From positions 1 through 20,260 of the forward strand of contig JAMNXK010000012.1 of NCBI GenBank assembly GCA_023653245.1: DNA of 20,260 nt, given 5' to 3'. The stretch comes from Tagaea sp. (GTDB lineage Bacteria > Pseudomonadota > Alphaproteobacteria > CACIAM-22H2). The stretch's first letter is position 1; each line of letters opens with the position of its first letter. Positions 2,236 through 20,059 of the stretch are shown piece by piece. Under the pieces are notes generated by a model, which saw only the letters and a program-made list of their open reading frames with translations, searched no databases and had not been told where the DNA came from. The translations under genes and the position numbers were made by a program.

Positions 2236-2571
2236 GTGAAACCGAAGAAACAGATCTCGGCGACGGGAAATATCCGCGCGAAGCGAAATGGTCCGGGAAA
2301 AACCCGGTCCAAGAGAGCGAATACTCGAAGTCACCAACCGGCCTCGAAGGTCGCCGCCCATTCGCTTAACCTCACGGTCGACCCTGCCTATAAGTGCCGA
2401 GTCAGCGATGGCGTCGCTTCGGCAACGGGCGTGACCATGCCGTCCGCTCGCACCCTCCGCATTTGGGGAGCGCGTTTCGCAGCCAGCGTCGCAGTGATCA
2501 AAGCGATCATTGAAGACGGCGAGCCGATTTTGGCCTTCGTCGAGCAGCTCGTTGGACAGATCGTAGCTTGA
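2236..2571 (+). CDS. Small basic protein, probably 3'-truncated by an IS remnant (111 aa)
   Basis: This gene begins with GTG, preceded by a good ribosome-binding site (GGAGG at 2226-2230), 14 bp after the AAA+ gene, so the two form an operon. Residues 1-42 are very basic (Lys/Arg/Thr/Asn-rich), suggesting nucleic-acid contact or disorder. Residues about 45-111 are mixed, with a helical stretch near SVAVIKAIIEDGEPILAFVE. I recognise no family. The stop codon (2569-2571) lies at the junction with the IS3-type OrfA remnant read on the other strand, whose frame runs cleanly until about 2566. The natural C-terminus has therefore probably been lost and the present last residues may come from the junction. 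Confidence 0.55.
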   Translation: MKPKKQISATGNIRAKRNGPGKTRSKRANTRSHQPASKVAAHSLNLTVDPAYKCRVSDGVASATGVTMPSARTLRIWGARFAASVAVIKAIIEDGEPILAFVEQLVGQIVA

Positions 2572-2816
2572 CGCTCGCTATCGCCCGACAGCCGCTTTCT
2601 GCCGGCCTCCAGGAAGTCCTTTGACCACGCGTAGTAGAGGCTCTCGGCGATCCCTTCGCGGCGGCACAGCTCGGCGACCGAGTGCTCGCTGCGCAGGCCC
2701 GATAGAACGATCCGGATCTTCTCTTCGGAGGAGTACTTCTTGCGCGTCTGGCGGCGGATATCGCGGATATGCTGCTCGGCGGTGCCGGTCGGTGCGGTCT
2801 GTTTCATCGGTCTCAT
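2566..2816 (-). pseudogene. IS3-family OrfA fragment (N-terminal ~80 residues)
   Basis: The fragment carries the N-terminal DNA-binding part of an IS3-family OrfA. The run KYSSEEKIRIVLSGL followed by VAELCRREGIAESLYYAW is the characteristic Tnp_1 (PF01527) helix-turn-helix that recognises the terminal repeats, and FLEAGRKRLSGD closes it. Past ERQA the reading frame continues into foreign sequence (read in the opposite direction to the 111-aa gene) and loses all OrfA character, including the leucine zipper and frameshift window. The protein cannot support transposition. Confidence 0.85.
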
Positions 2817-3051: not shown

Positions 3052-3639
3052 ATGCCGATACCATCCTTCACCATTGACGGCGTGATGCCACCCTTCGTTG
3101 GCCCAAATGGGCCAGGCGGCGCTCCTGAAGATCTTTCACCCTATCCGACAACGGCGACCGAGGTGGTGACGACACTTGCCTCGACAGTAGCCCGCCGCAC
3201 GATCCTGAAAGGCTGGCTCGGTCATCGGGCGTCCCTGAGAGCGATCGGCTTTGACCGCGGCTTCCAATGGCTTGATGGGAGCTTTGTCGAAGACAAAGAG
3301 CCTCAGGATCTCGACATCGTTGGCTTTTTCTATCGGCCGCCCGGAATCCGTGACGGCAATATGCTCGCGCGTCTGATGCAGGCTAACATCGCCCTGTTCG
3401 GTCGCGCGCAAGTCAAGACAACCTACCGTCTCGACTTTTTTCCGGTTGACCTTAACGGCACGCCTGAGGCTCTTGTCAGCCTGACCCGTTACTGGCTTGG
3501 TCTGTTCTCACATCGCCGCCAGGACAGTCTTTGGAAAGGCATGCTGCAGGTTCGTCTTGAAGACGAGGCTGATGATACAGCGGCGCTGGCCATGCTCGAT
3601 CCCGCCGACGTCCAACCCGATAATGGAGGAGCGCCATGA
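3052..3639 (+). CDS. DUF6932-type nucleotidyltransferase-fold protein (195 aa)
   Basis: The protein opens MPIPSFTIDGVMPPF, the usual start of DUF6932 family members, which selects the ATG at 3052 although the frame is open further upstream and no strong RBS is seen. The middle has the Pol-beta nucleotidyltransferase signature: Gly76-Ser77 followed nine residues later by Asp86-x-Asp88 (LDGSFVEDKEPQDLDIV). A third acidic residue lies in YRLDFFPVD (Asp128). This is the minimal catalytic set of MNT-like enzymes that transfer AMP or another nucleotide. The stop overlaps the start of the next gene (ATGA, 3636-3639), so the two proteins are translationally coupled. MNT proteins often act as antitoxins or modifiers of a partner; whether this one does so is unknown. 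The family call rests on remembered sequence similarity. Confidence 0.75.
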   Translation: MPIPSFTIDGVMPPFVGPNGPGGAPEDLSPYPTTATEVVTTLASTVARRTILKGWLGHRASLRAIGFDRGFQWLDGSFVEDKEPQDLDIVGFFYRPPGIRDGNMLARLMQANIALFGRAQVKTTYRLDFFPVDLNGTPEALVSLTRYWLGLFSHRRQDSLWKGMLQVRLEDEADDTAALAMLDPADVQPDNGGAP

Positions 3640-4571
3640 CCAGCCTGCGCAAGCTCGAACGGGACTTCGCTCATGCTGACGCGGCCGCCGTGAACGGCCT
3701 GCTCGCGCAGCTTGGCGACGAAGACGTCATGGCGCGCTTTGGACTTGAGGCGCGACTCGCTGACTTGCAGCAAGAGATCGCGCGGCTCGACGCGGCCGGC
3801 GATGAGCCGACCGCGTCGGCTGCGCTGTTCTTCGGTGGCCGCCCGGTTCTCGGTCAACGCGGGATCGAGTGCGAGTTCGCCGGCACCGTCATCACCAAAT
3901 TCCAAGACATCGTGGCCAAGGTTCTCGCGCATGAGACCGGCGGCCTCGGCCAGCGGGGAGTCGTCGCCAACAAGGCCGCTTCCACGCTCCACATAACTAA
4001 CATCGTGCGTGGCTCGTTCGGATTCCTCCTGGAAGAAGCAGGATCGCAGCAGCACATGGTCGAAACGCCCCTGCGCGCGGCCGTTGACGAAGCGACTCGT
4101 CTGCTCGATGCCTTTGGCGAACCCGACGAAGAGCAATTCCGGACAGCGATCGAGACCATCGACGATCGTCTTTTGGGGACGGCGCGCGACTTCTTCAACA
4201 TCATGCGCTCGAACGGGGCGACGCTCCGTCTGGTTTCAGGCGAAACCGACCGAAGTTTCGGGACGGAAGCGGTCGAGCGGGCCGCGGAGCGGGCAACCTC
4301 CACCACGGTCCAGGACAGCGAAGAAATTCTGCGCGGGCAGCTCGGGGGCGTTCTGCCTGACGCACATCAGTTCGAATTCCGTGTCGGCGCGCCGCAAGAG
4401 ACCATACGCGGACGCATTGATCGCGCCCTGACCGCAGATGAACTCTCACGCTACAATCGGCAATGGGTCAATGTCGATGCCGTGGCGCGCGTGCGGGTTA
4501 AGCGAGTTCGTCGCAACGACGCGGTGGTTCGCGAAGCCTATACACTTATCGGCCTCGACGCGGCCCGATGA
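3636..4571 (+). CDS. Partner of the NTase-fold protein, function unknown (311 aa)
   Basis: I recognise no domain with confidence. Residues about 1-60 look like a helical or coiled-coil region. Residues about 60-120 are mixed and Gly-rich. Residues 125-205 are helical (LRAAVDEATRLLDAFGEP, IETIDDRLLGTARDFFNIM). Residues about 235-311 alternate hydrophobic residues like a beta-rich domain (QFEFRVG, VNVDAVARVRVKRVRR, AYTLIGLD), possibly an OB-like fold. There is no signal peptide, membrane segment, HEPN R-x4-6-H motif or nuclease motif that I can see. The ATGA overlap with the NTase gene makes a two-gene unit. It ends 8 bp before the convergent DUF6527 gene, with no terminator between. It could be a toxin or substrate controlled by the NTase, but this is inference from the pairing alone. 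Confidence 0.7.
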   Translation: MTSLRKLERDFAHADAAAVNGLLAQLGDEDVMARFGLEARLADLQQEIARLDAAGDEPTASAALFFGGRPVLGQRGIECEFAGTVITKFQDIVAKVLAHETGGLGQRGVVANKAASTLHITNIVRGSFGFLLEEAGSQQHMVETPLRAAVDEATRLLDAFGEPDEEQFRTAIETIDDRLLGTARDFFNIMRSNGATLRLVSGETDRSFGTEAVERAAERATSTTVQDSEEILRGQLGGVLPDAHQFEFRVGAPQETIRGRIDRALTADELSRYNRQWVNVDAVARVRVKRVRRNDAVVREAYTLIGLDAAR

Positions 4572-4579
4572 CATTCGGC

Positions 4580-4912
4580 TCAATCGCACCATTGCACGCG
4601 GCCGGCGCGTAGCCAGAAGTGTGACCGGCATCCGGTCTTTCGCCACACCGAAGGCGACAGGCTCGGTCGGCCCTTGGAATCAACGGCCAGGTCCCACCGC
4701 GGCTTGGCTTCAGGGATGACCAGAAGTTCGATTGTCGATCGGCACCCGCATGGGCACCGAAATCCAACGCACCAATCCTCGGCGCCGTCGCGCGCCACGA
4801 CGAGATCGCGCCGGGGCAACGTTGCCGGAGGACTATCGCCTTCAACGACGCGCAAGCGGCGCGCGGGCGCGACCCGCTCCCAAAGCGCGCGCCACAATCG
4901 CTGCCAACTCAT
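4580..4912 (-). CDS. DUF6527 Cys-rich protein of the Ubl operon (110 aa)
   Basis: The start ATG (4910-4912) overlaps the stop of the JAB/E1 gene (ATGA), so it is the third gene of the operon; the frame is open further upstream but that is the antisense of the E1 gene. The protein matches the DUF6527 pattern: a clustered C-P-C-G-C (Cys53, 55, 57), then PRWDLAVDSKGRPSLSPSVW, then TGCRSHF (Cys95, His98) and a terminal WC (Cys109). The Cys/His set suggests zinc binding. From memory, DUF6527 proteins recur in operons with multi-ubiquitin, E2 and JAB/ThiF genes. Their biochemical role is not established to my knowledge; ligase-like or adaptor functions are possible. Confidence 0.85.
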   Translation of the reverse strand: MSWQRLWRALWERVAPARRLRVVEGDSPPATLPRRDLVVARDGAEDWCVGFRCPCGCRSTIELLVIPEAKPRWDLAVDSKGRPSLSPSVWRKTGCRSHFWLRAGRVQWCD

Positions 4913-6312
4913 GAGCGAGGCTTCGTAATGCGAGGGCCGAACATCGGGAGGCCGAGCAGCGGCTCGCGCGCACCCCGGCCAAGCACCGCCAACGGGCACG
5001 TCGTGAAGCCGTCTTCGGCGGTGTATTCTTCCTCGCACGCGGCCAAACTGAACGTCGTCCGCGCATAGAGCCGGTTGGGGTCGAGCCGAAACGGATAGGC
5101 CCGGGCAATGAACTCGTTCACGCAAGCCGACGCCGCGCGCATGTTGAGCGTGATCACAGCGGGCGCCTCCTCGACCGCGCCCTTGATATAGCCGGCCTGG
5201 AGCTCTTGCCGATGCGCCTCGGGCGCGACTTTGCGCAGATATTCGGCGCGAAGGCTCTCGGGCGTGTAGACGCCACGATCACCGAGCGTCGCGCCGCCTG
5301 GCTGCACATAGTCGATGCGACCGCAGACATCGCCGATCGCGATGCCGTCCACGGTCTTCCGCGTCGGAATCGTCACGCCGGCATCGAAGACCGGAATCAG
5401 GAACGCCGCGCTGATCAGGTCGACGATCTGGCGCGCTTCCAGCGTATCGACACAGCAGAACAGCACGTCACAGCCAGCCGCCACGATCACCGCCTCACGG
5501 GTGGCGATCGACAGATCGAGGGGCTCGACAATCCCGGCACCGCGATAGGCATGTACCGCCGCCGCGAACATCTCGACCTTCTTGCGCCGGGCGGCGGCAT
5601 CGGCCAACGTCGAATTCACGATGCGGTTGAGGTTGCGCAGCTCGACGCGGTCAAAGTCGATCGGCACAATTTTGCCGAATCCCAACCGTCCGATCTGCTC
5701 GCCGACGATAGATCCGGTTCCGGACACACCGATCACCCCGGCGGTGAGATCGCCCAGCTCGCGGCTCATGTCGCTCGTGAACGCGACCGGACGCCGCGCC
5801 AAGTCGGTCAGCGTCACGCTGGCGCTCCAGAAGTAGCGGAGATCGTCGCCCGCCACCGCGACCAGATCGATCGGGCGAGCGCGCATATCGGCGCTGTAGA
5901 GCCGCGCTCGCACACTTCCGTCGGCGATCATGATCGCCGACCCATGCTCCTCGCTGCAGGCCGCGAATAGCGATGGCAGCACGCGCTGGTCGCTTTCATC
6001 ATCGACGTCGGAGAACGCAAACAAGCCGCCAGGATGCGAGTGGATCAGAACAATCGTCAGGCCCTCGCCTTCGGCCAGGTCGATTGCCTCTTCGATGTAT
6101 GCGCCGGGCCAGGTAATGGCGTCGCGGGCGCGGCGCGCACAGGCTTCGTGCGGCACAAGGATCATGTCCCGTGCGACGAGGCGCACGCGCGGCCCGGGGC
6201 TGCGCGTGCAGACGAGCAAGGCGGCCGCCTCGAGTCCATCGCCCGGAAAGAGGTGTGTGTGGAGCGCGCCATGCATGACGCCGGAAAGGGCAAGCGTAGT
6301 CGCGGGCCTCAC
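4909..6312 (-). CDS. JAB deubiquitinase-like / ThiF-family E1 fusion (467 aa)
   Basis: The N-terminal domain (about 10-150) is a JAB/JAMM metalloprotease. Glu28 and H-S-H-P (91-94), with Ser101 and Asp104, give an exact H-x-H-x7-S-x2-D motif, so it should be able to cleave Ubl adducts. Residues about 165-440 are a ThiF/MoeB-type E1. They have a nucleotide-binding loop VIGVSGTGSIVG (193-204), DFDRVELRNLNR (219-230, with the conserved Asp and Arg/Asn residues) and CCVDTLEAR (286-294). E1s adenylate the C-terminus of a ubiquitin-like protein. The usual PG-x-C-x-x-C crossover-loop segment is here PGGATLG (338-344), without Cys; Cys330 just before it is a possible substitute. The GTG start overlaps the preceding stop (GTGA, 6309-6312), giving tight coupling to the Ubl/E2 gene. 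Confidence 0.9.
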   Translation of the reverse strand: MRPATTLALSGVMHGALHTHLFPGDGLEAAALLVCTRSPGPRVRLVARDMILVPHEACARRARDAITWPGAYIEEAIDLAEGEGLTIVLIHSHPGGLFAFSDVDDESDQRVLPSLFAACSEEHGSAIMIADGSVRARLYSADMRARPIDLVAVAGDDLRYFWSASVTLTDLARRPVAFTSDMSRELGDLTAGVIGVSGTGSIVGEQIGRLGFGKIVPIDFDRVELRNLNRIVNSTLADAAARRKKVEMFAAAVHAYRGAGIVEPLDLSIATREAVIVAAGCDVLFCCVDTLEARQIVDLISAAFLIPVFDAGVTIPTRKTVDGIAIGDVCGRIDYVQPGGATLGDRGVYTPESLRAEYLRKVAPEAHRQELQAGYIKGAVEEAPAVITLNMRAASACVNEFIARAYPFRLDPNRLYARTTFSLAACEEEYTAEDGFTTCPLAVLGRGAREPLLGLPMFGPRITKPRS

Positions 6313-7418
6313 TCGCCGACCTCCTTAGCTAGCGCCGCCTCGACCAGCATCAGTTGGGTCGCGACATTGTCGGCCTGCGGGTTCCAGGCAAGGCTTCCGC
6401 GGTTGCGCGACCACCCGTGAAACTCCACGTCATCGATCGTGCCGCGCATTTGCGTATTGTCGATGGCGCGTCCCGACGTGAGCGCGAGTGGCGGATAGGC
6501 ATAGAAGCCGTATATCTGCGCGCCGGGATAGGTCAGCGGGATTTCCAGCGCTAACAGCGCGTGGATTGTGCTGAAGCCACGCGGCAAAGGATAGTGATGG
6601 AGCAGAAGCCAGCGGCGCTCCAACTGGACGACCGTCTCCCAGCGCAGCCCCAACCGGGCAAGGTGCGCGTCGTCAGCCTCGAGCAGGTCGAACTCGCGGC
6701 GAGGCGCCCAGGGCGCCTCGCCGTTGTTGACCTCGTTCGGTGTCAGCCGGAGCTTCTCGATCCCCGGCGTGCGCAGATCGATCGTGTCGGTGAGCGTGAC
6801 CGGTCGCTTCGGCTGGCCGGCGATCTTGAGAAAGATCTGCCAGCCCTGATCGGGATTGAAGCCGGCGCGCGCGATGGCGTCGCGGACACCGATCGTCGGC
6901 GTCTCGACCTCCAAACCTACACCCTGCACGTTGAGCTTCCAGTGCCGGACCCTGGTGACGAACGACTCAACCCCGGCGGCATCGAGATTGACAAGATCAT
7001 GCGGGCCGATCGCCCGATCCGCCGTCTCGCTTTCCTCGAGGAAGATGGCCTTGTCTGACGGCACCTGGCCTAGCTTGCGCAGGACCCCTCCCGACACCAC
7101 GCGGCAAGGCCAGTCGAAGCGCTCGCCGTCGATCGTGAGACGATAGCTCCGGTCGCTCTCCACGATTACGAAGCGTCCCTCGGCGTGGCGCAAATCGGCG
7201 GTTTCGTCGGGCCGGATATCCTCGAGCTCGCCGTTCGCCAGCACCTGCAGCACGGTCGCCTGTTGCGCCGGCTTGAAGCCCGCCGCCGCCGCAAGCTGGG
7301 CGCCGGTCGGCGTAAAGTCGGCGATCGAGACCGACCGGAAGTTCAGGCCCGCATCGGCGACTTCGATGCGGTGGCGATCTTGGCCGCGATCCGCCGCAGC
7401 CTCCGAAACAATGTCCAT
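6309..7418 (-). CDS. Triple ubiquitin-like / E2-like fusion protein (369 aa)
   Basis: Three beta-grasp repeats of the multi-ubiquitin (PF14452) type can be aligned: about 15-88, 90-157 and 159-226. Each ends with a D-L-x(4)-G-like segment (ADLRHAEGRF, VNLDAAGVESF, IDLRTPGIEKL). Residues about 238-365 resemble the prokaryotic E2 family E fold: a short helical start, LPRGFSTIHALLALEIPLTYPG (277-298), YAYPPLAL, and WSRNRGSLAWNPQADN (336-351). Ubl substrate and E2-like conjugating factor are thus on one chain. The only cysteine in the whole protein is Cys105, in Ubl2, so the E2-like part has no candidate thioester residue. There is no C-terminal Gly-Gly; the end is VGE. It is the first gene of the operon, with GGAG 8 nt before the ATG and a promoter at 7463-7491. 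Confidence 0.85.
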   Translation of the reverse strand: MDIVSEAAADRGQDRHRIEVADAGLNFRSVSIADFTPTGAQLAAAAGFKPAQQATVLQVLANGELEDIRPDETADLRHAEGRFVIVESDRSYRLTIDGERFDWPCRVVSGGVLRKLGQVPSDKAIFLEESETADRAIGPHDLVNLDAAGVESFVTRVRHWKLNVQGVGLEVETPTIGVRDAIARAGFNPDQGWQIFLKIAGQPKRPVTLTDTIDLRTPGIEKLRLTPNEVNNGEAPWAPRREFDLLEADDAHLARLGLRWETVVQLERRWLLLHHYPLPRGFSTIHALLALEIPLTYPGAQIYGFYAYPPLALTSGRAIDNTQMRGTIDDVEFHGWSRNRGSLAWNPQADNVATQLMLVEAALAKEVGE

Positions 7419-7462
7419 AGGGGTAACTCCATAGTTGCCGACTCAAGGGCCGATGAGCCGCT

Positions 7463-7491
7463 AATATAGGTATGCGCGCTAAGTCTATCAA
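7463..7491 (-). promoter_or_regulatory. Promoter of the ubiquitin-like operon (minus strand)
   Basis: On the minus strand TTGATA (7486-7491) is followed after exactly 17 bp by TATATT (7463-7468), a good sigma-70 promoter with a predicted start near 7456, about 38 nt before the ATG at 7418. Its -35 box overlaps the first CAAGCG of the inverted-repeat cluster described next, so it can be repressed by the divergent XRE protein. Confidence 0.6.
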
Positions 7492-7523
7492 GCGCTTAAT
7501 TTGCACGCTTGCCATATCAAGCG
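7489..7523. promoter_or_regulatory. Operator-like cluster of CAAGCG/CGCTTG half-sites
   Basis: Three copies of one hexamer lie in alternating orientation: CAAGCG (7489-7494), CGCTTG (7506-7511) and CAAGCG (7518-7523), with 11-bp and 6-bp spacers. The first copy is also part of the self-complementary AAGCGCTT. They lie between the divergent starts and cover the -35 of the Ubl promoter and a probable plus-strand promoter for the XRE gene (TTGCCA at 7509-7514 with an AT-rich -10 near 7534-7539). This fits one repressor controlling both directions. Confidence 0.5.
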
Positions 7524-7584
7524 ATCACACTCATATCTATTGGGTCGGACTCCGCGTCCGGAACGCGCAAGCAGAGGAGCATCG

Positions 7585-7965
7585 ATGCCCGATGAAAAAC
7601 CAATGGAGAAGCCAACCAACCCTGCACTCGGACCGTTCCTGAGAAAGGCGCGCCAGGACATGCAGATGTCTTTGCGCGAGGTCGAAGACGCGACGGGAAA
7701 GGAAATCTCGAACGCGTATCTGAGCCAGCTCGAAAGCGGCAAAGTCACCAAGCCCTCGCCCCATGTCCTCTACGCTCTCTCGACGGCATTGGGCGTCGCG
7801 TATGAGACCCTGATGGAGCGTGCAGGCTACATTGTCCCTGCGGCCAACCGGGGCGACGATGAAAAGCATGGTCGCGCCGCCACCTTCTCGATCGACAACC
7901 TCACGGCCGACGAGGAGACCGAGCTGCTCGACTATCTCACCTACATCCGCTCGAAACGGAAATAA
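7585..7965 (+). CDS. XRE-family repressor, CapH-like (126 aa)
   Basis: Residues about 16-80 form an XRE helix-turn-helix. LGPFLRKARQDMQMSLREVE is helix 1-2, ISNAYLSQLESGKV is the recognition helix with the hallmark SQLE-G, and the rest of the bundle and a linker follow. The ATG at 7585 is chosen because AGAGGAG lies 6 bp upstream. The frame is open further 5', but that part covers the operator region. The metalloprotease gene follows after only 2 bp. XRE plus ImmA/IrrE pairs include ImmR/ImmA of ICEBs1 and CapH/CapP of CBASS, where the protease destroys the repressor on DNA damage. By position this protein should repress the divergent Ubl operon. The CapH analogy is inference from architecture. 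Confidence 0.85.
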   Translation: MPDEKPMEKPTNPALGPFLRKARQDMQMSLREVEDATGKEISNAYLSQLESGKVTKPSPHVLYALSTALGVAYETLMERAGYIVPAANRGDDEKHGRAATFSIDNLTADEETELLDYLTYIRSKRK

Positions 7966-7967
7966 CC

Positions 7968-8897
7968 ATGCCCCGGCCGGACGATTGCAGTTTGACGCCC
8001 GGCCAGCGACTTCGAGTCCGCAAGGAAGCCGAGCGTGCGCTGCGTGAAGCAGGCGCGCTCGGTGTTTTTCCGACGCCGATGGACCGCATCATGACGGTCG
8101 CGCGCGTCGAGGAGGTCAAGGAAGACGTCCTCAATCCAGGCTTCCTCGCCAAGCTCAGGGCCAATGTCGAACACACCGGTCAAATCGTGAAGAGCGCGGT
8201 GACCAAGGTGCTTGGGCTCTTCCACGCCTCCGAAGGCCTGGTGTTCCTCAGTCAGACCCTGATGGCCGTGAAGAAGCGCTTTGTCGGCTTCCACGAAGCC
8301 GCACATGGATTTTTGCCCTGGCAGCGCCCCATGTATGCGCTGGTCGAGGATTGCGAGAAAGCGCTCGATGGCGCAACCGCCGAGCTGTTCGACCGGGAAG
8401 CCAATGTGTTCGCGTCCGAGGTGCTCTTCCAGCTCGACACCTTCCATGAAATGGCCAGCAGCAAAGCCTTTGAGATCTGGACACCCGTCCGGCTGGCCAC
8501 GCGCTTCAACGCCTCCAACTATGCCGCGATCCGCCAGTATGTTTCGAAGAACCATCGCGCCTGTGCGGTGGTCGTCCTCAACATGCCCGAACTCGTTCCC
8601 GCCGACGGATTTCGAGCGACGTTGCGCCGGTCGATTCAGTCCGATCGCTTTACCGAGCTCTTCGGCGCCTATCCGTGGAAAGAGGCCTACACGCCGGACG
8701 ACGACATCGGTGCGCTTGTGCCCGTCGGCAAGTGCCGCTCCTCGGGCAAACGGTCGCTTGGTCTGACGGACAGCAACGGCGTGCTGCATGACTGCGTCGC
8801 CGAATCCTTCTCGACTGGTCATCAGGTCTTCATCCTGATCCATGCCGTCAGGACCCTGACCGCGACGCGCATATTGCTGCCGGCAGAGGCCTTGTAG
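7968..8897 (+). CDS. ImmA/IrrE (COG2856) metalloprotease, CapP-like (309 aa)
   Basis: The zinc-binding motif HEAAH (109-113) sits in FVGFHEAAHGFLPW, and FDREANVFASEVL (141-153) supplies Glu144 as the third ligand, the standard gluzincin layout of COG2856 proteins. The N-terminal 100 residues are helical. A C-terminal domain (about 190-309) of mixed strands could be the signal sensor. The start ATG follows the XRE stop by 2 bp, so the two are co-transcribed. Known relatives (ImmA, IrrE, CapP) cleave a partner XRE repressor; CapP is reported to respond to single-stranded DNA. The expected role is to relieve repression of the ubiquitin-like operon when infection or DNA damage occurs. This is not proven by sequence. 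Confidence 0.85.
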   Translation: MPRPDDCSLTPGQRLRVRKEAERALREAGALGVFPTPMDRIMTVARVEEVKEDVLNPGFLAKLRANVEHTGQIVKSAVTKVLGLFHASEGLVFLSQTLMAVKKRFVGFHEAAHGFLPWQRPMYALVEDCEKALDGATAELFDREANVFASEVLFQLDTFHEMASSKAFEIWTPVRLATRFNASNYAAIRQYVSKNHRACAVVVLNMPELVPADGFRATLRRSIQSDRFTELFGAYPWKEAYTPDDDIGALVPVGKCRSSGKRSLGLTDSNGVLHDCVAESFSTGHQVFILIHAVRTLTATRILLPAEAL

Positions 8898-10078: not shown

Positions 10079-13000
10079 CTAATCGTCGAGCGCGTCCGTG
10101 ATCCGATCGCGTGCATCGGCGGACAGTCGCTTAATACCGAAAAACCGCGCGATCTCCACTGGGATGTCACCGCCGGCGACATGCGCCGCGGCGGCCCGGA
10201 TTTCCTCCGAGGCGATATCCTCGATTCGCCGCCCATCCTCCTCGGCCGCCGGGCGGCGCGCGATCATGCCGCCCGAAACCTGCGCGTCGTCGAGCCAAAC
10301 GAACTTGCCGCCGACCGGGTCCTTCCTGATCGGGTGCTTCTTCTTCGCGAATTTCAACACCCGCTCGCGAATGCGATCCCCGGACCGCTGGAACCCATGC
10401 AGCCGCGAAACCCGCTCGACGAGCGCGTCATCCCGCATCGGCGCCTCGATCGTCAAAATCCGGTGGATCAACGCCGACAGGGTTGGCGCATAGGAGGCCT
10501 CTTCGAATCTGTCGCGGTCGAGCGTCAGATCGAGATCGGTCGCAGCGGCCCGCCGATAGGTTCCCGGAGGCTGGACGGGCGCTTCGGAGGATAAGTGTTC
10601 CGTGCCACCGGGCGCGGCGCCGCCCGCGTCATAGGCGCGCTTTGCGATCCCGACCTCGCGCCGGCTCTCGCCCCCACCGTCGTCGCGGACGGCAGCCGGA
10701 TCGCCCGAAACCGAATCGGCCGCGACAGCATTTTCGGCTGCAGAAGCGGCACCTGCGTCGCCTTCCGATATCCGCGCGGCCGCCTCGGCTTCCGCGTTCG
10801 CGCGCGCCTCAACGAGCAACCGTGTGATGTCGTCATGGACCTTTCGGAGCGCGGTGCGTCGATCGAACCACCAATCGGTCGACCAAATCCGGACCAGCTT
10901 CCAACCGAGATCCGCAAGGATGGCCGCGCGGATCTTATCGCGGTCGCGCGCCGTGGCACCGCTGTGGTACATCGCGCCGTCGCATTCCACGCCGACGAGG
11001 AAATCGCCCGGCTTGTCCGGATGGACGATCCCGAGATCGATCCGGAAGCGCGATACGCCGATCTGCGGCACGACCTGCCAGCCCAAACGGCGCAATTCCT
11101 CGGCCACCGCGGACTCGAACGGCGATTCGTGATCCCCCATCGACCCTTTGGACGCGGCGGCGAGCGCGACGGGCCCGCGCTCGGAGAATTCGATGAAGTG
11201 CTTCAAGTCGGCGACGGCGCGCGCGCCGGTCCGATGGAGATCGATCATCGAAGAGGTGAACGACGTGAAAACCACCATCTCGCGGCGCGCGCGCGTGACG
11301 GCGACGTTCAAACGCCGCCATCCGCCCTCACGATTGAGCGGGCCGAAATTCATCGACATCGTCGGCGAACCGGGCGTCGTGGGTCCGAACCCGATTCCGA
11401 GGAGCACCACGTCCCGCTCGTCGCCTTGGACGGTTTCAAGATTCTTGACCACCACGGGCTCGGCCAACGCTTCGTCGAAGAACGGTTCGATCTCCGGGTG
11501 CGCGCGCCGGCCTTTGTCGAGCAGGTCTTCGACGAGCGCCTGCTGCTCGGCGTTCAGCGTCACGACGGCGATCGTCTCCTCCGCGCCGCTCGCGACGTTC
11601 CGCTTGAGGCGCGCAACGACCTCGTCGGCGAGCGTCCGCGCTTCGATCGGGTTCGTATGATCCTTGCCCTTCGAGTAGACGCCGTCGACCTTGCGCCACG
11701 ACACGGCGCTGCGCTTGGTCACGGGCGCCGGGAACGTGACGAGCCCGCCGCCGTAGTAACGCTCGTTCGAGAACGCGATCAGGCTCTCGTGCCGGCTGCG
11801 GTAATGCCAAGTCAACGGAATGTTGGGCAATCCCGCCGCCTTGCATTCGTCGAGGATGCTTTCCATGTCCTCCTCGACGTCGTCGTCCACGGGGCTCGCG
11901 CCGCGCGTGAAGAAGCTCGTCGGCGGCATCTGCCGATGGTCGCCGGCGATAACGACTTGCTTGCCGCGCGCGATCGCGCCGATCGCGTCCCACGGCGAGA
12001 TTTGCGACGCTTCGTCGAAAATCACCAGATCGAAAAGCGCCTTCTCGGGCGGCAGGTACTGCGCGATGGAAAGCGGGCTCATCAGCATGCACGGCGCCAG
12101 CCGCGTGAAGGCGGGGCCCATGTCGGAAACCAACTGGCGGATGGGCTTATGCCGCTTCTGGAGCTGCAGTTGGTGCCGCAGGACGTCGTAGCCGTCGCCC
12201 TTCCCGCTCGCCTGCTTGCGCGGAATGTCCTTCGCGAGGCCCGCGCGGATGTAGCGAACCGACAGATCGGCGAGCCGGTCGTCGAGCGCGCGAAAATCCT
12301 CGATCTTTCCGATATGTTCGGCGGCCACGAAATCGCGGACGATGGGATCTTCGTCCATCGTCTTGGCCGCGAACCAGCGGGCGTAGGCGACCTCGAACAG
12401 CCGGTCGAGCCGTCCGATACCGTTCGGATCGGCCTCGGCGATCGCGGCCAGCGGCGCGAGACCCAGCGAGGTCGCCTCGGACTTGGCGCGACGCCAAGCG
12501 CACCACGCGTTCAATTGCGTTTGGTTGTCGGCGATCGCGGCGGCGAGCGCCCGCAAGCCCGCGAGATCGTCGGTCGTTTCGAACTCCGAGAGACGCGCGA
12601 GCCCCTCGGCCGCCGAAGCGCCGTCCTCGACCGCCGCCTTCAAAGCGGTCAGAACGATGCGGATCTGCCCCGTTTCGCCCAACAATTCGTTCGCGTCGAT
12701 CGCGACGCGCGCGACGGCTTGACGCAAGGCGGAGAGCGCGCTCGCATCGCCCGCGAGCACGGCGACCGCATCGCGAAGCCGTTTTCCGGCCGCGAGAGCC
12801 GCCCGCATGCGTGCCGTATCCGAGGTCAGCCCCGACCATCCCGGAATACCGGCGGCCTCGGCGGTCAACACGTCGATTTCGGCGAGGCGGGCCGCCAATT
12901 CGTCGAACACGTCGAGATCCGCGCCCACGTTCGGCGCAACGTTCGCGCCACCCTGCGCCTGGACCAGTTTCGCGGTCGCGCGCTTTCCGAACGCTGAGAG

Positions 13001-15967
13001 CGGCCAGACCTGCCCATTTGCTTTGTTCCATTTCGCCCGGAGGCCGGCTCGGTCGATCCGCCGAACCGCCTCGGGCATGTATGCCGCCGAGAGACGCTTC
13101 TCCGCCGCGCGATATGCCTCGATCGCGGCCACCGCCTTCTCGCCGACGACCAATTTCGCCGCCGCGTCCGGCGCGAACGCGAAGCTTAGATCGATGCCAT
13201 AAGCGCCCGCCAGCGCCTCGAACAACGCGATCGCCTTGCGGGCGTTGCCGAAATTCGACCAATCGAGCGGCAGACCGAGGGCGGCGTCGGCCTTAGCGGT
13301 CGCGTCGTCGTAGGACCGCGCCGCGTCCGACATACGACGCGCGGCCGCGACGATTTCGGCTTGCCACGCGTTCGACCAGGTCGTCCGTCGCAATCCCGCC
13401 AACGGCGTCAGCACGCCCGCGATCGGCGCCGCGTTGGCTTGAAGGCGACGCACCGTTTCGCGCAGCTTCGCGATATCCTCGGCGGTATGCGCGGTGCCAT
13501 CGGGCCAGCCGAGTTCGGGTATTGGCGCCTCCCCGTGCCCGACGACGCGTCCGATCGCGTCGTGCAACGTCAGGCCGTTCGGCGCGCGCCGATGAAGCGC
13601 GCGGACGAGCGCGTTCAAGCCGTCGCGCAGACGGCGAAGGCGCTCGGTCTCCTGCTTCCATTCTTCCGCCGTGTAGCGCTCGGCGACGCTCCAGGCGGCG
13701 TCGAGCTGATCGAGAACCGCGACTTTCGTCGCCTTGTTGGAGTGCAGTTCGAGGCAGAATTCGCCGAGACCTTTCGCCTTGAGCCGCCGATGGACCACGT
13801 CGAGCGCCGCGCGCTTCTCGGCGACGAACAGGATGCGCCGCCCCAGCGCCAAGTTCTGCGCGATCATGTTCGCGATGGTCTGCGACTTGCCGGTGCCGGG
13901 CGGGCCGTCCAGAACGAAGCTCATCCCCTCGGCCGACGCGACGACCGCCGATATCTGCGAGGAATCGGCGGGCAGCGGCAGGAAAAGCGAGGCCGGATCG
14001 ACGCGGTCGTCGAGCTCCTCGGGGCGAACGTGGTCGCGCTTGCCCGCGTAGGGTTCGTTCCGGCGGTCCAGCAAATGCCGCACGACGGGGCTTTCGCGCA
14101 ATTGGCCGATGCGATCCGCCAGATCCTTCCACATCAGGAACTTCGCGAACGAGAAGGTTCCGAGGACGACGTCGGTCGACACCTCGAAGCCTTTCGAATC
14201 CCTGACCGCGTGACGCACGGCGTTCCAAACCTTCGCGACGTCGATCCCGTTGTCGTCGGCCGGCAGCGGCCCGCTCAGCGGTCCGACGTCGAGCGCGAAG
14301 TCCTGACGGAGAAGCTCCAGGAGGGTCAGGTTGATCCGCGCCTCGTCTTCGTGCGCCCTAAGCGTGTAGCCGGAGCGCGCGCTGCGCCGTTCCAGCCGGA
14401 CGGGCATGAGAATGAGCGGCGCGCGGTTCACGCGCTTGTCGCTTTCGTTCTTGCGCCAGCGCAAGAAACCCAGCGCCAAGTAAAGCGTGTTGGCCCCGCC
14501 TTCGTTGAGATCGGCTTTCGCCTTTCGATAAAGCTCGACGATGGCGGCGTCGAACCGCTTGGGATCGAGGTCGCACAGGATGTCGCCTCGCTCGATGTAC
14601 TCGCGCGCGACGTCCTCGCGCAGCCGGGTCTGCCGCTGGCGGTCGTACAATTCGGTGTCGCGGCCGGCCGCACCGAGATCCGGCAACGGCATCACGCGGA
14701 TCGATTGTCCGGCGGCCAATTTGTCTTCGAGCCGCGCGGGATCGGGACAGAGCAGCGGAATGGAGCTGCTCCCGTCCGGCAGGTTGAGCAACCTGTTCCG
14801 GGTGGACAGATCGAGCAGCTTGCGCTGCCAAACGCCGATCCGGTCCGTAAGCGCGTCGGTGGCCGGCTTGGCGACCGCAACGTCGACGATGTCGTCGACC
14901 ATGTCCGGCGCCGCGTCGAGCGCGAGGGGCGCGTCCTCCGTCGGCGGCGCGTCGCCCGAAGCGCCGACGGCGGCCACCTGCGTATCGAGGGGGCGGATCT
15001 TCCGCATCCGGGCCCGGCGTATATCGATCACGGCGCCGAAATCGCCCTCGACGTCGATCGCGACTTGGCGCTTCGCTTCCTCGATCGCCTTCGAGAACGG
15101 CGGCACCTGCGACTGGCCCACATAAGTCGTCTCGAACACGACGATTTCGTCCAAATCGATCCGCTTGCGCAACGGCTCCGGATCGTCGATGGAAATGTCC
15201 GCGAATTCCTTCGGGGCCAGCCACGCCCCCGCGAACGCGTGCCCTTTGGTCAGGACGATGACCGCGTTGAGACCCATTTGCTCGATCGCCGCGGCGAACA
15301 GCGTCGCCGTATCGAGACAGGTCGCGACCCGTCCGTCGAGGATGTGCGTCGGCAACCGGATCTTTTGACCGGCCGTCTCGAAACTCGCCGGCGGAAGGAC
15401 GTAGCTCAGCCGGAGCGACGCCACGGCCGACCACAGCGCGGACAGCATCGTCCACACCCGCTTGCGCGATTTTGACTCGTAGCCGTTCAGCCCGTCCGGT
15501 TGGCCGCCTTTCCGGAGAATTTCGGCCGTCATCTTCAGGATTTTATCGATGGCCGGGTCGTTCGGCATGACGAAGGCCGGCAGCAACTCCGCCATCGACG
15601 TGGCTCCACCCCACTCCGATCGGGCGAGAACCTCGACGGCGGTCGCTTCGCTGGCGAGCACGGCTGCCCCCGCGGTCAATTCGAGTACGACGGTGCCGCG
15701 AACGGCCTCGTTGAGAGCGCCGAGATAGCCCGCACTCAACCGGACATCGCGGTCAGGAATATGAAAAGTTGATTCCGGATCGATACGGTCGATCCGCCAA
15801 ATCTTCTCGGCCAGGAAAGCGGGATCGGACGACAGTTTCAGCGTGAGATCGGTGGCCGCATTCCCCTCGGTGTTGACGAGCTTCAGTTCGCGAAGGACCG
15901 GAACCGAGTTCTGCTGCGAGGCGTAACCGATTTTCGTGGAGACGGACGCTTGGATTTCGATCTTCAT
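10079..15967 (-). CDS. hheA: Hhe-type DUF4011 / SF1 helicase / Vsr-like nuclease anti-phage protein (1962 aa)
   Basis: The order of parts follows. (1) An N-terminal region of about 330 residues includes a transglutaminase-like motif: Cys near 215 in ATCLDTATLF, His near 242 in KGHAFAGAW and Asp near 259. (2) The DUF4011-type segment begins near 370 (KLLDLSTRNRLLNL). (3) An SF1 helicase core has Walker A GPPGTGKSQT near 685, DEAS box with QISPWDA near 1317, the GDHRQMPP motif, and NVAVTRARR near 1530. (4) A PD-(D/E)xK or Vsr/DUF559-like nuclease spans about 1630-1730, with FRIDLGIV, VGVECDGAMYH and KLVRIWSTDWW. (5) A DUF3320-like winged-helix tail covers about 1830-1962. This matches the single-gene DUF4011-helicase-Vsr defence system (Hhe) reported by Gao and colleagues in 2020. 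All helicase motifs look intact. A weak RBS (GAGCGGGA) precedes the ATG. The gene stands alone. Confidence 0.85.
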   Translation of the reverse strand: MKIEIQASVSTKIGYASQQNSVPVLRELKLVNTEGNAATDLTLKLSSDPAFLAEKIWRIDRIDPESTFHIPDRDVRLSAGYLGALNEAVRGTVVLELTAGAAVLASEATAVEVLARSEWGGATSMAELLPAFVMPNDPAIDKILKMTAEILRKGGQPDGLNGYESKSRKRVWTMLSALWSAVASLRLSYVLPPASFETAGQKIRLPTHILDGRVATCLDTATLFAAAIEQMGLNAVIVLTKGHAFAGAWLAPKEFADISIDDPEPLRKRIDLDEIVVFETTYVGQSQVPPFSKAIEEAKRQVAIDVEGDFGAVIDIRRARMRKIRPLDTQVAAVGASGDAPPTEDAPLALDAAPDMVDDIVDVAVAKPATDALTDRIGVWQRKLLDLSTRNRLLNLPDGSSSIPLLCPDPARLEDKLAAGQSIRVMPLPDLGAAGRDTELYDRQRQTRLREDVAREYIERGDILCDLDPKRFDAAIVELYRKAKADLNEGGANTLYLALGFLRWRKNESDKRVNRAPLILMPVRLERRSARSGYTLRAHEDEARINLTLLELLRQDFALDVGPLSGPLPADDNGIDVAKVWNAVRHAVRDSKGFEVSTDVVLGTFSFAKFLMWKDLADRIGQLRESPVVRHLLDRRNEPYAGKRDHVRPEELDDRVDPASLFLPLPADSSQISAVVASAEGMSFVLDGPPGTGKSQTIANMIAQNLALGRRILFVAEKRAALDVVHRRLKAKGLGEFCLELHSNKATKVAVLDQLDAAWSVAERYTAEEWKQETERLRRLRDGLNALVRALHRRAPNGLTLHDAIGRVVGHGEAPIPELGWPDGTAHTAEDIAKLRETVRRLQANAAPIAGVLTPLAGLRRTTWSNAWQAEIVAAARRMSDAARSYDDATAKADAALGLPLDWSNFGNARKAIALFEALAGAYGIDLSFAFAPDAAAKLVVGEKAVAAIEAYRAAEKRLSAAYMPEAVRRIDRAGLRAKWNKANGQVWPLSAFGKRATAKLVQAQGGANVAPNVGADLDVFDELAARLAEIDVLTAEAAGIPGWSGLTSDTARMRAALAAGKRLRDAVAVLAGDASALSALRQAVARVAIDANELLGETGQIRIVLTALKAAVEDGASAAEGLARLSEFETTDDLAGLRALAAAIADNQTQLNAWCAWRRAKSEATSLGLAPLAAIAEADPNGIGRLDRLFEVAYARWFAAKTMDEDPIVRDFVAAEHIGKIEDFRALDDRLADLSVRYIRAGLAKDIPRKQASGKGDGYDVLRHQLQLQKRHKPIRQLVSDMGPAFTRLAPCMLMSPLSIAQYLPPEKALFDLVIFDEASQISPWDAIGAIARGKQVVIAGDHRQMPPTSFFTRGASPVDDDVEEDMESILDECKAAGLPNIPLTWHYRSRHESLIAFSNERYYGGGLVTFPAPVTKRSAVSWRKVDGVYSKGKDHTNPIEARTLADEVVARLKRNVASGAEETIAVVTLNAEQQALVEDLLDKGRRAHPEIEPFFDEALAEPVVVKNLETVQGDERDVVLLGIGFGPTTPGSPTMSMNFGPLNREGGWRRLNVAVTRARREMVVFTSFTSSMIDLHRTGARAVADLKHFIEFSERGPVALAAASKGSMGDHESPFESAVAEELRRLGWQVVPQIGVSRFRIDLGIVHPDKPGDFLVGVECDGAMYHSGATARDRDKIRAAILADLGWKLVRIWSTDWWFDRRTALRKVHDDITRLLVEARANAEAEAAARISEGDAGAASAAENAVAADSVSGDPAAVRDDGGGESRREVGIAKRAYDAGGAAPGGTEHLSSEAPVQPPGTYRRAAATDLDLTLDRDRFEEASYAPTLSALIHRILTIEAPMRDDALVERVSRLHGFQRSGDRIRERVLKFAKKKHPIRKDPVGGKFVWLDDAQVSGGMIARRPAAEEDGRRIEDIASEEIRAAAAHVAGGDIPVEIARFFGIKRLSADARDRITDALDD

Positions 15968-16422: not shown

Positions 16423-17352
16423 TCAAAAAGGCGACGGGGACAACACAGCCGATCCCTCGCCGTCGGAGTTCGGATCGACACCCGGTTGCGCCTCATCACT
16501 CAACAATGGCAGAGTTTCCTTATCCTCATCGGGTTCGAAAACGGCCTTAGTCGGATCGGCAACCGGCCGCGATTCGAAGTTCAGACCGGCCGAGAGCAGA
16601 TTTCTCGCGGTGAACTTTCCTCCCAGCGCTCGCGGGCCAAAGGTCCTGTCGGCGTATACAAAGGCTAGCTGCGGGAGTACATCGACCCGTGAGCGGCGTT
16701 TGATCACGCGAATGTGCTTCTTGGCCAGGGCGCACTCGAAATCGTCGATCCAAACCTCGTTATCTTCACCTAAGATTTCCAGTATTGCTTCTTGGACGAG
16801 CATGACGTCGGATTGCTCGCCGAACCTCTCAAGCTTCTGGATCGCCGCCGCCGTCGGCGCACGAACATGCTCCCTCGATGCTTCTGGCTCCAGAAGGTGC
16901 GACGGTCGAACGCGCTGAAGCTCAAAATCGATCTCGATTAGCCGAACGATCTTTTCTCCCCGCGCAAAATCATGACCATCGGGAACGACGCTGCCGTCCA
17001 ATCGAATGCGTGGGCAGAGGATGTGGACATGGTCGCCGTGTGACACCACAAGAAACGTGTCAAATCCGAGTTCGCCGATGTATCTGCGACAGAGTCGCGA
17101 CCATTCCTGATCAGAAACGTGGCGATCTTTAGGGCTCAAGCGGAGAGTCGAGTGAAACATGTTTCGTTTTACAGTTGGGCGCCGCGCGACGATCGCAGAA
17201 ATCTCGCGGGTGAGTTCCCATTCGTTGCGCCCGGCAAAGACGCTATCGATGATTTCGGCGCGCGGGCGCCTGCGGCCAGACGAGTCGACCGACCCAAGCA
17301 AGTAGCGGAGCATATCCCCGATACCTCGCGCCTTGAGAATCTTTTGGATCAT
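16423..17352 (-). CDS. MobA/VirD2-type relaxase, compact (309 aa)
   Basis: The N-terminal 150 residues carry the HUH relaxase signatures: candidate nicking Tyr17 (DMLRYLLG), a strand HSTLRLSPKD (67-76), and the metal-binding motif H-G-D-H-V-H (105-110) followed by ILCPRIRLDG. Such enzymes cut one strand at oriT, stay covalently bound through Tyr and lead the DNA into a recipient. Residues 160-309 lack the helicase or primase domains of large relaxases and end in an acidic tail, so this is a minimal type suited to a mobilisable element that borrows transfer machinery. The start overlaps the stop of the MobC-like gene (ATGA, 17349-17352). No coupling protein or type IV secretion genes are in the window. 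Confidence 0.85.
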   Translation of the reverse strand: MIQKILKARGIGDMLRYLLGSVDSSGRRRPRAEIIDSVFAGRNEWELTREISAIVARRPTVKRNMFHSTLRLSPKDRHVSDQEWSRLCRRYIGELGFDTFLVVSHGDHVHILCPRIRLDGSVVPDGHDFARGEKIVRLIEIDFELQRVRPSHLLEPEASREHVRAPTAAAIQKLERFGEQSDVMLVQEAILEILGEDNEVWIDDFECALAKKHIRVIKRRSRVDVLPQLAFVYADRTFGPRALGGKFTARNLLSAGLNFESRPVADPTKAVFEPDEDKETLPLLSDEAQPGVDPNSDGEGSAVLSPSPF

Positions 17353-17780
17353 TTCTTCACCTCTATTCCTAGAAGGAGCAACCGAAGTCGGCGGATTTCT
17401 TCCGTAACCTTGGTCATCTGCTCCTCGACGGATTCGGGCATGAGCTTCGCTTCATAGGCGCGGCGAAACATAGTCGTGAGATCATCGAGTTGGCACCGGA
17501 GCGCATCCCATTGCTCCACATTCAAGGTCGGAACGATCCGCGGCGGCGATGCTTCCGTCACACGGGAGAGGATGTAGCTAGCGGTGCGCAAACCGGCCAA
17601 CGTCGCGTCATGTTTCAGCGACCTATAGACTGACTGTGGCACCGACAAGCTAACAGTCTTTACAGGCTCGCTCCGCTTAGGCCGACCAATGCGGCGCCGC
17701 TCCGGCGCAACTGCATGCGTTTCGGCCGACGGAAGTTGATCTACCTGATCTGAGATTGCTGCGGATGTCACGCGTGTCAT
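17349..17780 (-). CDS. mobC: MobC-like relaxosome accessory protein (143 aa)
   Basis: A basic N-terminal part (RRRIGRPKRSEPVKTVSLSV, about 28-47) leads into a ribbon-helix-helix-like segment (TVSLSVPQSVYRSLKHDATL) and a helical C-terminal part with Arg/Leu-rich heptads (VTEEIRRLRLLLLG). This layout is typical of MobC proteins that bind oriT and assist the relaxase. ATG at 17778-17780 is taken as start; a TTG five codons upstream is possible. A TATATT box (17787-17792 on the complementary strand) is only 6 bases before this ATG, which fits a leaderless mRNA. The stop overlaps the relaxase start, so both are made from one transcript. Confidence 0.75.
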   Translation of the reverse strand: MTRVTSAAISDQVDQLPSAETHAVAPERRRIGRPKRSEPVKTVSLSVPQSVYRSLKHDATLAGLRTASYILSRVTEASPPRIVPTLNVEQWDALRCQLDDLTTMFRRAYEAKLMPESVEEQMTKVTEEIRRLRLLLLGIEVKK

Positions 17781-18197
17781 GATGACAATATACAAACTCT
17801 GACCGGGAACGTCGGCGCCTTGCCCGGGATTTTCTCATGCAAAACACGAAGCCTGCGCATGCAGTTCAGTAATGCACGCGTAATTCTTACGCAGTTGGAG
17901 GCGGCGACCAGCGGGATCGTTGTGTAGATCGACATTATGAAAGTCTTTGACCAGCATCCGCTTCGAGCAGCAGCTTTCTTCCGCGACACAAATGTTTGGA
18001 ACTGCCGCCTCAACTCCGGAAGGACGTTGCCAGCTGTCAAAAATATTCGCCGGGTGAGTATTCGTCGCTGAAGATTGGTTGATTGAAGCACCACCTGACT
18101 GAAGATGAGGCGGGTTCCTCTGGCGAAATGTTTCGCCGTAACGCGCCCCGTGAAGGGCTGGGACTCAGTCCAATCGGTTCGCGCAGCTCTGATCGAG
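17781..18197. other. Gene-free 417-bp region with candidate oriT
   Basis: This stretch upstream of mobC has no convincing gene; the long frames across it have poor codon character. It contains the inverted repeat GCGTAA-TTC-TTACGC (17878-17892), followed by AGTTGGAGGC, about 100 bp from mobC. That is the usual place and shape of a relaxase recognition hairpin beside a nick site. Other hairpins are listed separately. The nic site cannot be fixed from sequence alone. Confidence 0.45.
18122..18137. repeat. Palindrome GGCGAAA-TG-TTTCGCC
   Basis: Two 7-bp arms are separated by 2 bp, about 60 bp past the stop of the small minus-strand gene ending at 18198. The compact, nearly loop-free symmetry is typical of a protein-binding operator rather than an RNA hairpin. 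It could serve the mobilisation operon or relaxosome. Confidence 0.4.
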
Positions 18198-18422
18198 TTA
18201 GCGATGGACTGATTCCCTGAGGATTTGAGCGATGAATTCACGCAAAGTCTGGCCCGCCGCCTTGGCGCGGGCCCGCAATTCGGCGGCAACGCCGGTGTCA
18301 ACGGTCGTTTCTACGCGTACAAGCCCGCGCGCATTGAGCGCTTCTCGGTGCGCTTTGACAGCGGCCCGGATCGCCCTGCGTCTGGCGGCTTGTTTCTTTT
18401 TTGTTCGAAAGAATTTGGCCAT
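18198..18422 (-). CDS. Small basic, ribbon-helix-helix-like protein (74 aa)
   Basis: The N-terminal 30 residues are very basic (KKKQAARRRAIRAAVKAHRE). Residues about 35-70 (RVETTVDTGVAAELRARAKA, then QTLREFIAQILRE) have the strand-helix-helix pattern of ribbon-helix-helix DNA-binding proteins. The ATG (18420-18422) lacks a strong RBS. Directly upstream is a 10-bp palindrome TTACCGGTAA (18429-18438) which could be its own operator. It is divergent from the gene at 18534 and upstream of the mob block. It may regulate the integration/excision or mobilisation genes; no family can be named. Confidence 0.6.
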   Translation of the reverse strand: MAKFFRTKKKQAARRRAIRAAVKAHREALNARGLVRVETTVDTGVAAELRARAKAAGQTLREFIAQILRESVHR

Positions 18423-18428
18423 CGGCTG

Positions 18429-18452
18429 TTACCGGTAAACACTTTTGCGCAA
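18429..18452. promoter_or_regulatory. Palindromes in the divergent promoter region
   Basis: TTACCGGTAA (18429-18438) and TTGCGCAA (18445-18452) are perfect palindromes close together between the divergent starts at 18422 and 18534. On the minus strand a TATATT lies near 18466-18471. On the plus strand TATATA (18520-18525) ends 8 bases before the ATG at 18534. They look like operator sites, probably for the small DNA-binding proteins on either side. Confidence 0.4.
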
Positions 18453-18533
18453 GTCTAAGAAAAAATATAGGCGTTGACTCAAGAGCTTAGGCGAAAATTT
18501 GGGAAGAGGCAGTGAAGCGTATATAGTAGTAGT

Positions 18534-18869
18534 ATGGGCGAAGATCATGCCGACAAGAAACTTCTGTGGACGATCGACAAGGCTCTTGAGGAGTTGTCGA
18601 TGTCGCGTTGGCAGTTCAAGCGCGAAGTCATGCCGTTCGTGGCGCCTGTCATCACGCCCGCACAACTCGCAATGAAGCGCCCGACGAAGCGGTACAGGCC
18701 CGACGCGCTCAAGAAGTTCATTTTGGGCTGCCCCGGCGGGGACGCCGGCGTTGATCCGGATTCGGCAGCGCGCGAGAAGGTTTTGGCGGAACTGCGCGCG
18801 CGCCGCGCGGCGGCTGAACAGCGTCGGGCAACGGCGGCGTCCAAGTCGCCGATTTCTCAAACGCGGTAA
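18534..18869 (+). CDS. Putative DNA-binding, excisionase-like protein overlapping the integrase 3' end (111 aa)
   Basis: Residues about 10-65 (LLWTIDKALEELSMSRWQFK, then RPTKRYRPDALKKFI) look like a winged or MerR-like helix-turn-helix of the kind found in excisionase/AlpA-type proteins: an N-terminal helix pair followed by a basic strand region and a final helix. The C-terminal 40 residues are charged and Ala/Arg-rich. It stands tail-to-tail with the recombinase and overlaps its last 152 bp. A TATATA box (18520-18525) lies 8 bp before the ATG and there is no clear RBS. Excision control is suggested by position next to the recombinase, but the fold call is weak. Confidence 0.55.
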   Translation: MGEDHADKKLLWTIDKALEELSMSRWQFKREVMPFVAPVITPAQLAMKRPTKRYRPDALKKFILGCPGGDAGVDPDSAAREKVLAELRARRAAAEQRRATAASKSPISQTR

Positions 18870-19980: not shown

Positions 19981-20039
19981 CGGAGCCTCGGGTTTCAGCG
20001 GCGTACATTAGCAGCAAATCCGAAGGATCGGCGAAAAAC

Positions 20040-20059
20040 CGGCTAAAACGCGGCTAAAA
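20040..20059. repeat. Tandem CGGCTAAAA direct repeats upstream of the integrase
   Basis: CGGCTAAAA occurs at 20040-20048 and again at 20051-20059, 11 bp apart or one helical turn, with a third weaker copy (GGCTGTAAAA) near 20067-20076. Direct repeats phased with the helix between an integrase gene and a tRNA are typical arm-type binding sites of tyrosine recombinases. Confidence 0.4.

Follow-up and report, generated by a model that had tools for sequence, protein, structure and literature searches.

Positions 4580–8897 of a 20,260-nucleotide stretch of Tagaea sp. DNA (contig JAMNXK010000012.1, positions 1–20,260; the window) carry an operon for ubiquitin-like (Ubl) protein conjugation that faces a divergent repressor and metallopeptidase gene pair. 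The operon is probably silenced by the repressor, which is of CapH type, and released by the peptidase, which is of CapP/PprI type. What is directly seen comprises the genes present, their conservation and linkage, the operator-like sites and a promoter that fits the consensus. Two results go beyond an earlier sequence-only reading of this DNA and are new here: relatives of the pair share an operator code, and the switch subfamily appears to be dedicated to Ubl operons. The frequency of M78 peptidases among the regulators of such operons, given below, is likewise new.

The Bub operon and its divergent regulators

By sequence comparison, the minus strand at 4580–7418 encodes a Bub (‘bacterial ubiquitination-like’) operon of three genes, with a 4-base overlap at each junction. 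The first (6309–7418) encodes a BubAB-type fusion of 369 amino acids with three Multi_ubiq Ubl domains (PF14452, 1e-31) and an E2-like domain (PF14462, Prok-E2_E, 9.5e-22). The second (4909–6312) encodes a BubCD-type fusion of 467 amino acids, a JAB isopeptidase (PF14464, 2.2e-9) joined to a ThiF/E1-like adenylyltransferase (PF00899, 1e-18). The third (4580–4912) encodes a DUF6527 protein of 110 amino acids (PF20137, E = 3.1e-24). The operon is classed as Bub because its first two genes match Citrobacter BubA, BubB and BubCD. When sequence is compared with solved structures, the closest relatives are BubA 9d59 (E = 1.6e-75) and BubB 9eav (E = 4.1e-26) for BubAB, and BubCD 9ea4 (E = 4.2e-154) for the second protein. 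The Citrobacter system (9d59/9d5a, 9eav/9eae and 9ea4/9ea5) has the domains of the window, namely three Ubl, an E2-like domain and a JAB–E1 fusion, and a Citrobacter locus (L057) has the same bubAB–bubCD–DUF6527 order. That locus differs upstream, where a same-strand gene pair of CapK + CapS size stands in place of the divergent CapH and CapP.

Both active sites of BubCD appear intact from the alignment. H91, H93, S101 and D104, which we take to be the JAMM motif, are invariant in 68 rows, as are G198, G200, R230 and D289 of the adenylation domain; these are presumably the catalytic residues of JAB and E1. The sole invariant cysteine of BubCD, C287, lies two residues ahead of D289. In BubAB, cysteine reaches half of the rows in no column, and the E2-like domain of the window is cysteine-free. 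The junction between the Ubl and E2-like parts reads NG in 64 of 65 rows and NNG in 38; it is NNG in the window, and the solved Citrobacter BubA chain stops at the junction NNG. Judged from this sequence, the Ubl C-terminus can probably be freed. The DUF6527 protein is an obvious missing piece of the Bub system. Of the 71 Bub loci surveyed below, 68 have it, and two of the remaining three end before its position. Five of its residues (C53, C55, C57, C95 and H98) are invariant in 65 rows, and this CPCGC ... CxxH pattern suggests a zinc site. A fold search with its AlphaFold2 model (mean predicted local distance difference test score 92.2) gave no convincing match.

The regulators form a tandem pair on the plus strand. 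A CapH-type XRE repressor of 126 amino acids (7585–7965; HTH_3 3.2e-11, PADLOC capH 1.5e-7) is followed after a gap of 2 base pairs (bp) by a CapP-type M78 metallopeptidase of 309 amino acids (7968–8897; PF06114 8.4e-7, PADLOC capP 4.4e-13). Pfam matches at the expected places bear out all five gene identities and coordinates of the sequence-only reading, and its picture of a Ubl operon divergent from an XRE repressor and a COG2856/M78 protease holds. The repressor also fits the canonical CapH group by profile (a match of 97.3% across 78 columns). The HExxH residues of the peptidase (H109, E110 and H113) are invariant in 14 rows and again in a second, more diverse set of 14. Fold comparison puts PprI/IrrE at the top for its C-terminal domain and CapP in sixth place, and the domain is probably a GAF-like sensor of the PprI/CapP type.

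In sequence the pair is a diverged subfamily relative to canonical CapH/CapP: the PADLOC capP score is 4.4e-13 in the window versus 1.8e-43 to 4.5e-62 for four canonical CapP proteins tested from other Bub loci. Thauera sp. K11 CapP (7t5t) represents the canonical CapH + CapP type, whereas the window subfamily stands beside Ubl or ThiF genes in readable strong hits. The Deinococcus pair PprI–DdrO controls DNA repair genes rather than a Ubl operon. According to PMC10904395, PprI (IrrE) is an M78 peptidase with a GAF-like domain that cleaves a helix-turn-helix (HTH) repressor when activated by single-stranded DNA (ssDNA). Together with PMC13373217, that source describes both CapP and PprI as ssDNA-activated proteases.

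Promoter and operators

The gap between the two gene groups (7419–7584) contains a promoter directed towards bub (minus strand, 7463–7491) with a −35 box TTGATA at 7491–7486, a −10 box TATATT at 7468–7463 and a spacer of 17, matching the consensus at 10 of 12 positions; shuffles of the gap region average 0.2 promoter sites of such quality. The sequence-only reading had proposed such a promoter, its −35 overlapped by CAAGCG half-sites at 7489–7523. The promoter is backed by its consensus match, but the half-site was superseded as the unit once 19 intergenic regions were aligned: the half-sites are pieces of 16-bp dyads at 7478–7493 and 7507–7522. The motif GCTWR-N6-YWAGC was read from the aligned capH–bubAB gaps of 18 loci and the window. 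These gaps show blocks such as GCTAAGTTTGTCAAGC and GCTTGACAAACTTAGC, which are mutual reverse complements, each fit the motif and lie 28–30 bp apart.

The window carries two predicted operators that match the motif at 10 of 10 positions: O2, GCTAAGTCTATCAAGC (7478–7493), and, 29 bp from it, O1, GCTTGCCATATCAAGC (7507–7522). A further site, O3 (7460–7475), matches at nine of 10 and lies over the bub −10. The conserved operator-like pair lies over the bub −35, where a CapH/CapP repressor acting at the operon promoter would bind. O1 contains a −35-like TTGCCA (7509–7514, plus strand) facing capH; the promoter scan of the gap called no promoter on the plus strand towards capH. Of 18 relatives, 17 carry such a box at this position, with a match at 5 or 6 of its 6 bases. 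The relatives’ bub −35 matches at 5 or more of 6 in all 18, a count that leans towards a match as site choice favoured sites holding a −35-like box, and their −10 matches at 2–6 of 6, with only 2–3 in eight. The operators cover both the bub −35 and the capH-facing −35-like box, and CapH is therefore predicted to repress the operon and itself.

Dinucleotide shuffles of 7419–7584 (n = 2000) gave two perfect sites in no case and one or more in 19. Perfect sites number 40 in 1.096 Mb, of which 29 fall in the 19 capH–bub gaps, a concentration that is partly circular since the motif was derived there; the gap of L022, with none, was alone among the 19 reported as a miss. No perfect site occurs in the 46 Bub loci with other regulators, and sites matching at nine of 10 occur in six of these, where about three are expected from the overall 0.236 per kb. 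Outside the defining set, loci found via the peptidase (11 on plasmids and eight of nine strong genome hits) had a perfect site in 17 of 19 gaps and a pair at 27–31 bp in 12, some of these loci (e.g. L072 and L124) being closely related to members of that set. The ninth, L123, was omitted as a repeat of L016, which is probably the same genome. In 500 shuffles of these gaps the means were 0.138 (site) and 0.0 (pair), with maxima of 2 and 0. The two gaps without a perfect site were those of L075 and L080 (Deinococcus), and two plasmid loci (L077 and L082) have triple perfect sites at 28–29-bp steps. Among 18 weak-hit loci scanned, none had a perfect site near the HTH gene; L083 has one 2.8 kb off.

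The 5′ leader of bubAB (about 7420–7455, minus strand) forms a hairpin in many relatives, often CCGGC..GCCGG, just ahead of the ribosome site. The leader in the window folds as well, though its stem is not the same.

Linkage of the switch to ubiquitin-like operons

A general-purpose CapH/CapP switch would be expected to have relatives beside many kinds of genes, and linkage was therefore also examined in reverse, from the peptidase. A tblastn search of plasmids with the window peptidase gave 19 records, of which 15 were read; H10 (from the strain of H9) and H14–H16 (from the species of H13) were left out. All 11 records with 30–69% identity over at least 86% of the query (H1–H9, H11 and H12) have HTH and peptidase genes divergent from Ubl/ThiF genes. 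Neighbours were taken from annotation, and for the unannotated H6 and for H12 they came from separate analyses; H12 (Deinococcus) gave Multi_ubiq at 1.7e-5 and ThiF at 3.2e-28. The twelfth record of at least 30%, H19, is a fragment (36% identity over 31% of the query) with no HTH or Ubl gene. In the stretches read, the three records at 21–28% (H13 Clavibacter, H17 Mycolicibacterium and H18 Nitrobacter) showed no Ubl gene, and the H18 relative is located near a CBASS cyclase.

The 1818 genome searches comprised one class and four order-level draws, in which some genomes recur. They gave nine strong hits (E below 1e-90) that had been found independently of Bub, and eight of them have divergent Ubl/E1 genes: Multi_ubiq with E1 in L120–L125, Multi_ubiq with a DUF6791–ThiF protein in L117, and in L118 a ThiF gene 1.4 kb away, where a search for Multi_ubiq found none. 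The ninth, L119, is a 3-kb contig, too short to tell its neighbours. The 14 weak hits had E values of 8.8e-11 to 8.5e-22, with one at 3.4e-26. Only L126 among them is close to ThiF and Multi_ubiq genes, which lie on its other side; the flanks read in the other 13 were about 1–1.5 kb each.

The linked operons are of several types: fused BubAB with BubCD and DUF6527; Multi_ubiq with separate JAB and ThiF; Multi_ubiq with DUF6791–ThiF; and a small Deinococcus set. The subfamily thus looks dedicated to Ubl operons. An open PMC literature search found no description of the GCTWR-N6-YWAGC operator or of such dedication. Whether the switch came from viruses or phages was considered, and this was set aside: of 41 IMG/VR stretches hit by the CapP profile, none encodes a relative, phage records gave no match, and a BubCD scan of IMG/VR yielded a single locus.

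Regulators of other Bub operons

Bub loci were also surveyed from the conjugation genes. A BubCD profile scan with one genome per species, selecting relatives that share two peptide motifs rather than taking a census of all Bub operons, gave 70 loci; the same scan of IMG/VR added one contig, for a total of 71. BubAB is present in 66 (all except L046, L065, L067, L069 and L070), 65 of them with upstream sequence (L001 being the exception). Regulator classes were assigned by clusters and profiles, with M78 confirmed by Pfam on the representatives tested.

The window type of CapH + CapP stands beside 16 of the 65 operons, its peptidase frame split in L012 and L025. The five-gene neighbourhood predicted to recur in other genomes does so in these loci and on a Bradyrhizobium septentrionale plasmid. 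Two further loci (L014 and L018) have window-type CapH without window-type CapP. They retain repressor and operators; L018 has a 340-amino-acid protein and another M78 protein instead of the usual peptidase, which would fit an exchange of the sensor.

Canonical CapP + CapH occurs in five loci (with a weak CapH match in L066) and CapH alone in one. In 10 loci canonical CapP has another partner, about 195 amino acids long, and in one that partner occurs with an M78–UvrD–PDDEXK protein. The partner (L026, 6138–6725, and nine further loci) lies between canonical CapP and bubAB, at the position expected of CapH, and is perhaps an unrecognised repressor family; the one protein tested had no Pfam match. 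In 11 loci an M78–UvrD–PDDEXK protein is encoded directly upstream on the same strand (in L055 only its C-terminal part is on the contig). This protein of about 1140 amino acids joins an M78 peptidase to a UvrD helicase and a PD-(D/E)XK nuclease (L002, 3359–6781, and another 10 loci; the gene is divergent in L054) and could combine DNA-end sensing with repressor proteolysis in one molecule.

A PD-Lambda-2-like pair with an M78 domain accounts for five loci, a gene pair of CapK + CapS size for 11, WYL for two and another M78 protein for one. The CapK + CapS label was given from cluster, sizes and order, and Pfam searches with two proteins of these pairs gave no STAS or GHKL match. In total, an M78 peptidase belongs to the regulator group beside bubAB in 49 of the 65 sampled loci; L018, outside the 49, bears another M78 gene further away.

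Mobile island context

The window also holds a relaxase (16423–17352), a tyrosine integrase (18718–19980) and, at the right edge, tRNA-Pro. This region (16423–20193) looks like an integrative mobilizable island. A repeat of the tRNA-Pro 3′ end was sought as the left attachment site, and none was found elsewhere in the window. A second defence gene on the island (10079–15967, minus strand) encodes a DUF4011 helicase/nuclease, a homologue of the anti-phage protein ProA in NCBIfam (NF058533, 2121.9 bits, cut-off 1500).

Convergent with the DUF6527 end of bub are genes for a DUF6932 protein (3052–3639, plus strand), presumably nucleotidyltransferase-like, and a 311-amino-acid protein (3636–4571, plus strand). 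The pair is a recurrent companion of the bub cassette: it is found at the same place in L008, L017, L036, L037, L046, L070 and L072, and in no other locus examined (tblastn, E ≤ 1e-4). PADLOC gave weak matches of the pair to candidate defence genes. Between an AAA gene and the DUF6932 gene lies a remnant of an insertion sequence-type transposase OrfA (2388–2816, minus strand; HTH_Tnp_1 4.8e-10).

Proposed mechanism and alternatives

For the window strain, we infer that CapH binds and regulates itself, that ssDNA activates the peptidase, that CapH is cleaved, and that the Ubl is trimmed and conjugated, as follows. (i) In resting cells, CapH dimers would occupy both 16-bp operators, which are spaced 29 bp apart and cover the bub −35 and the −35-like box facing capH, respectively. 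(ii) DNA damage or phage replication would expose ssDNA, which would activate the peptidase via its GAF/PAS-like domain. (iii) The activated peptidase would cleave CapH, opening both promoters. (iv) BubAB would be made and then probably trimmed by the JAB domain at the NNG junction, freeing the Ubl C-terminus. (v) The E1 domain would adenylate the Ubl, and the E2-like domain would hand it to targets. The sequence-only reading had an operon silent until DNA damage or phage attack, a logic that is consistent with the HExxH motif and the PprI/CapP-like C-terminal domain; ssDNA-activated cleavage of the repressor is likewise proposed by analogy.

Two other claims of that reading fare less well. 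It had treated the joining of a Ubl operon to CapH/CapP as new, but PMC13373217 already reports that 219 of 544 Bub operons adjoin CapW or CapH + CapP. It had also cast the operon as a phage defence, and the same paper states that phage defence has not been demonstrated for Bub operons. The paper further describes CapK + CapS as another damage-activated controller beside Bub operons; as a kinase and a STAS-wHTH repressor, it differs in mechanism from CapH/CapP.

Among the alternatives, a service of the operon in a general DNA-damage or proteostasis response, rather than in phage defence, is a serious possibility, if somewhat short of an even chance. It is compatible with control by CapH and CapP and changes only the outcome. 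Against it stands the location of bub on a mobile island beside the ProA homologue and the weak candidate-defence matches; such a location is no proof of a defence role. It is unlikely that the pair is a CapH/CapP look-alike whose C-terminal domain responds to a different signal, such as a nucleotide or a protein, the peptidase still clearing the repressor; the fold matches to PprI and CapP bear on this point.

Pairs of a neighbouring XRE repressor and COG2856/M78 protease, ImmR/ImmA, control excision and transfer in integrative elements. That the window pair is likewise the element’s own switch, beside bub by chance, would suit the integrase, relaxase and tRNA-Pro of the island but is highly improbable: the 20,260 bases hold no perfect operator outside the two at 7478–7522 in the capH–bub gap, the four other sites matching at nine of 10 (343, 7460, 12543 and 14818) include none near integrase or relaxase, and elsewhere, in genomes as well as on plasmids, the pair accompanies Ubl operons.

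Implications

A control unit of CapH and the peptidase, with its own DNA sites, stands beside several kinds of Ubl operon. That the same unit travels with them suggests that tagging is switched on by DNA damage. A broader proposition, for which the odds seem evenly balanced, is that a ubiquitin switch exists as a dedicated unit: one CapH/CapP subfamily, its operator code consisting of two or three copies of GCTWR-N6-YWAGC at steps of about 29 bp, would have been kept with Multi_ubiq operons while E1, E2 and JAB were reshuffled into several architectures, and, with four other kinds of M78 protein beside bubAB, most such Ubl operons would be DNA-damage responses acting via repressor proteolysis. 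With a travelling control unit and a predictable operator, operons likely to be controlled in this way can be named from sequence. The role of Bub conjugation is at stake, and a DNA-damaging drug could reveal whether Ubl tagging is a damage response. If the proposition is true, bacterial ubiquitin-like tagging would be a LexA-independent branch of the damage response.

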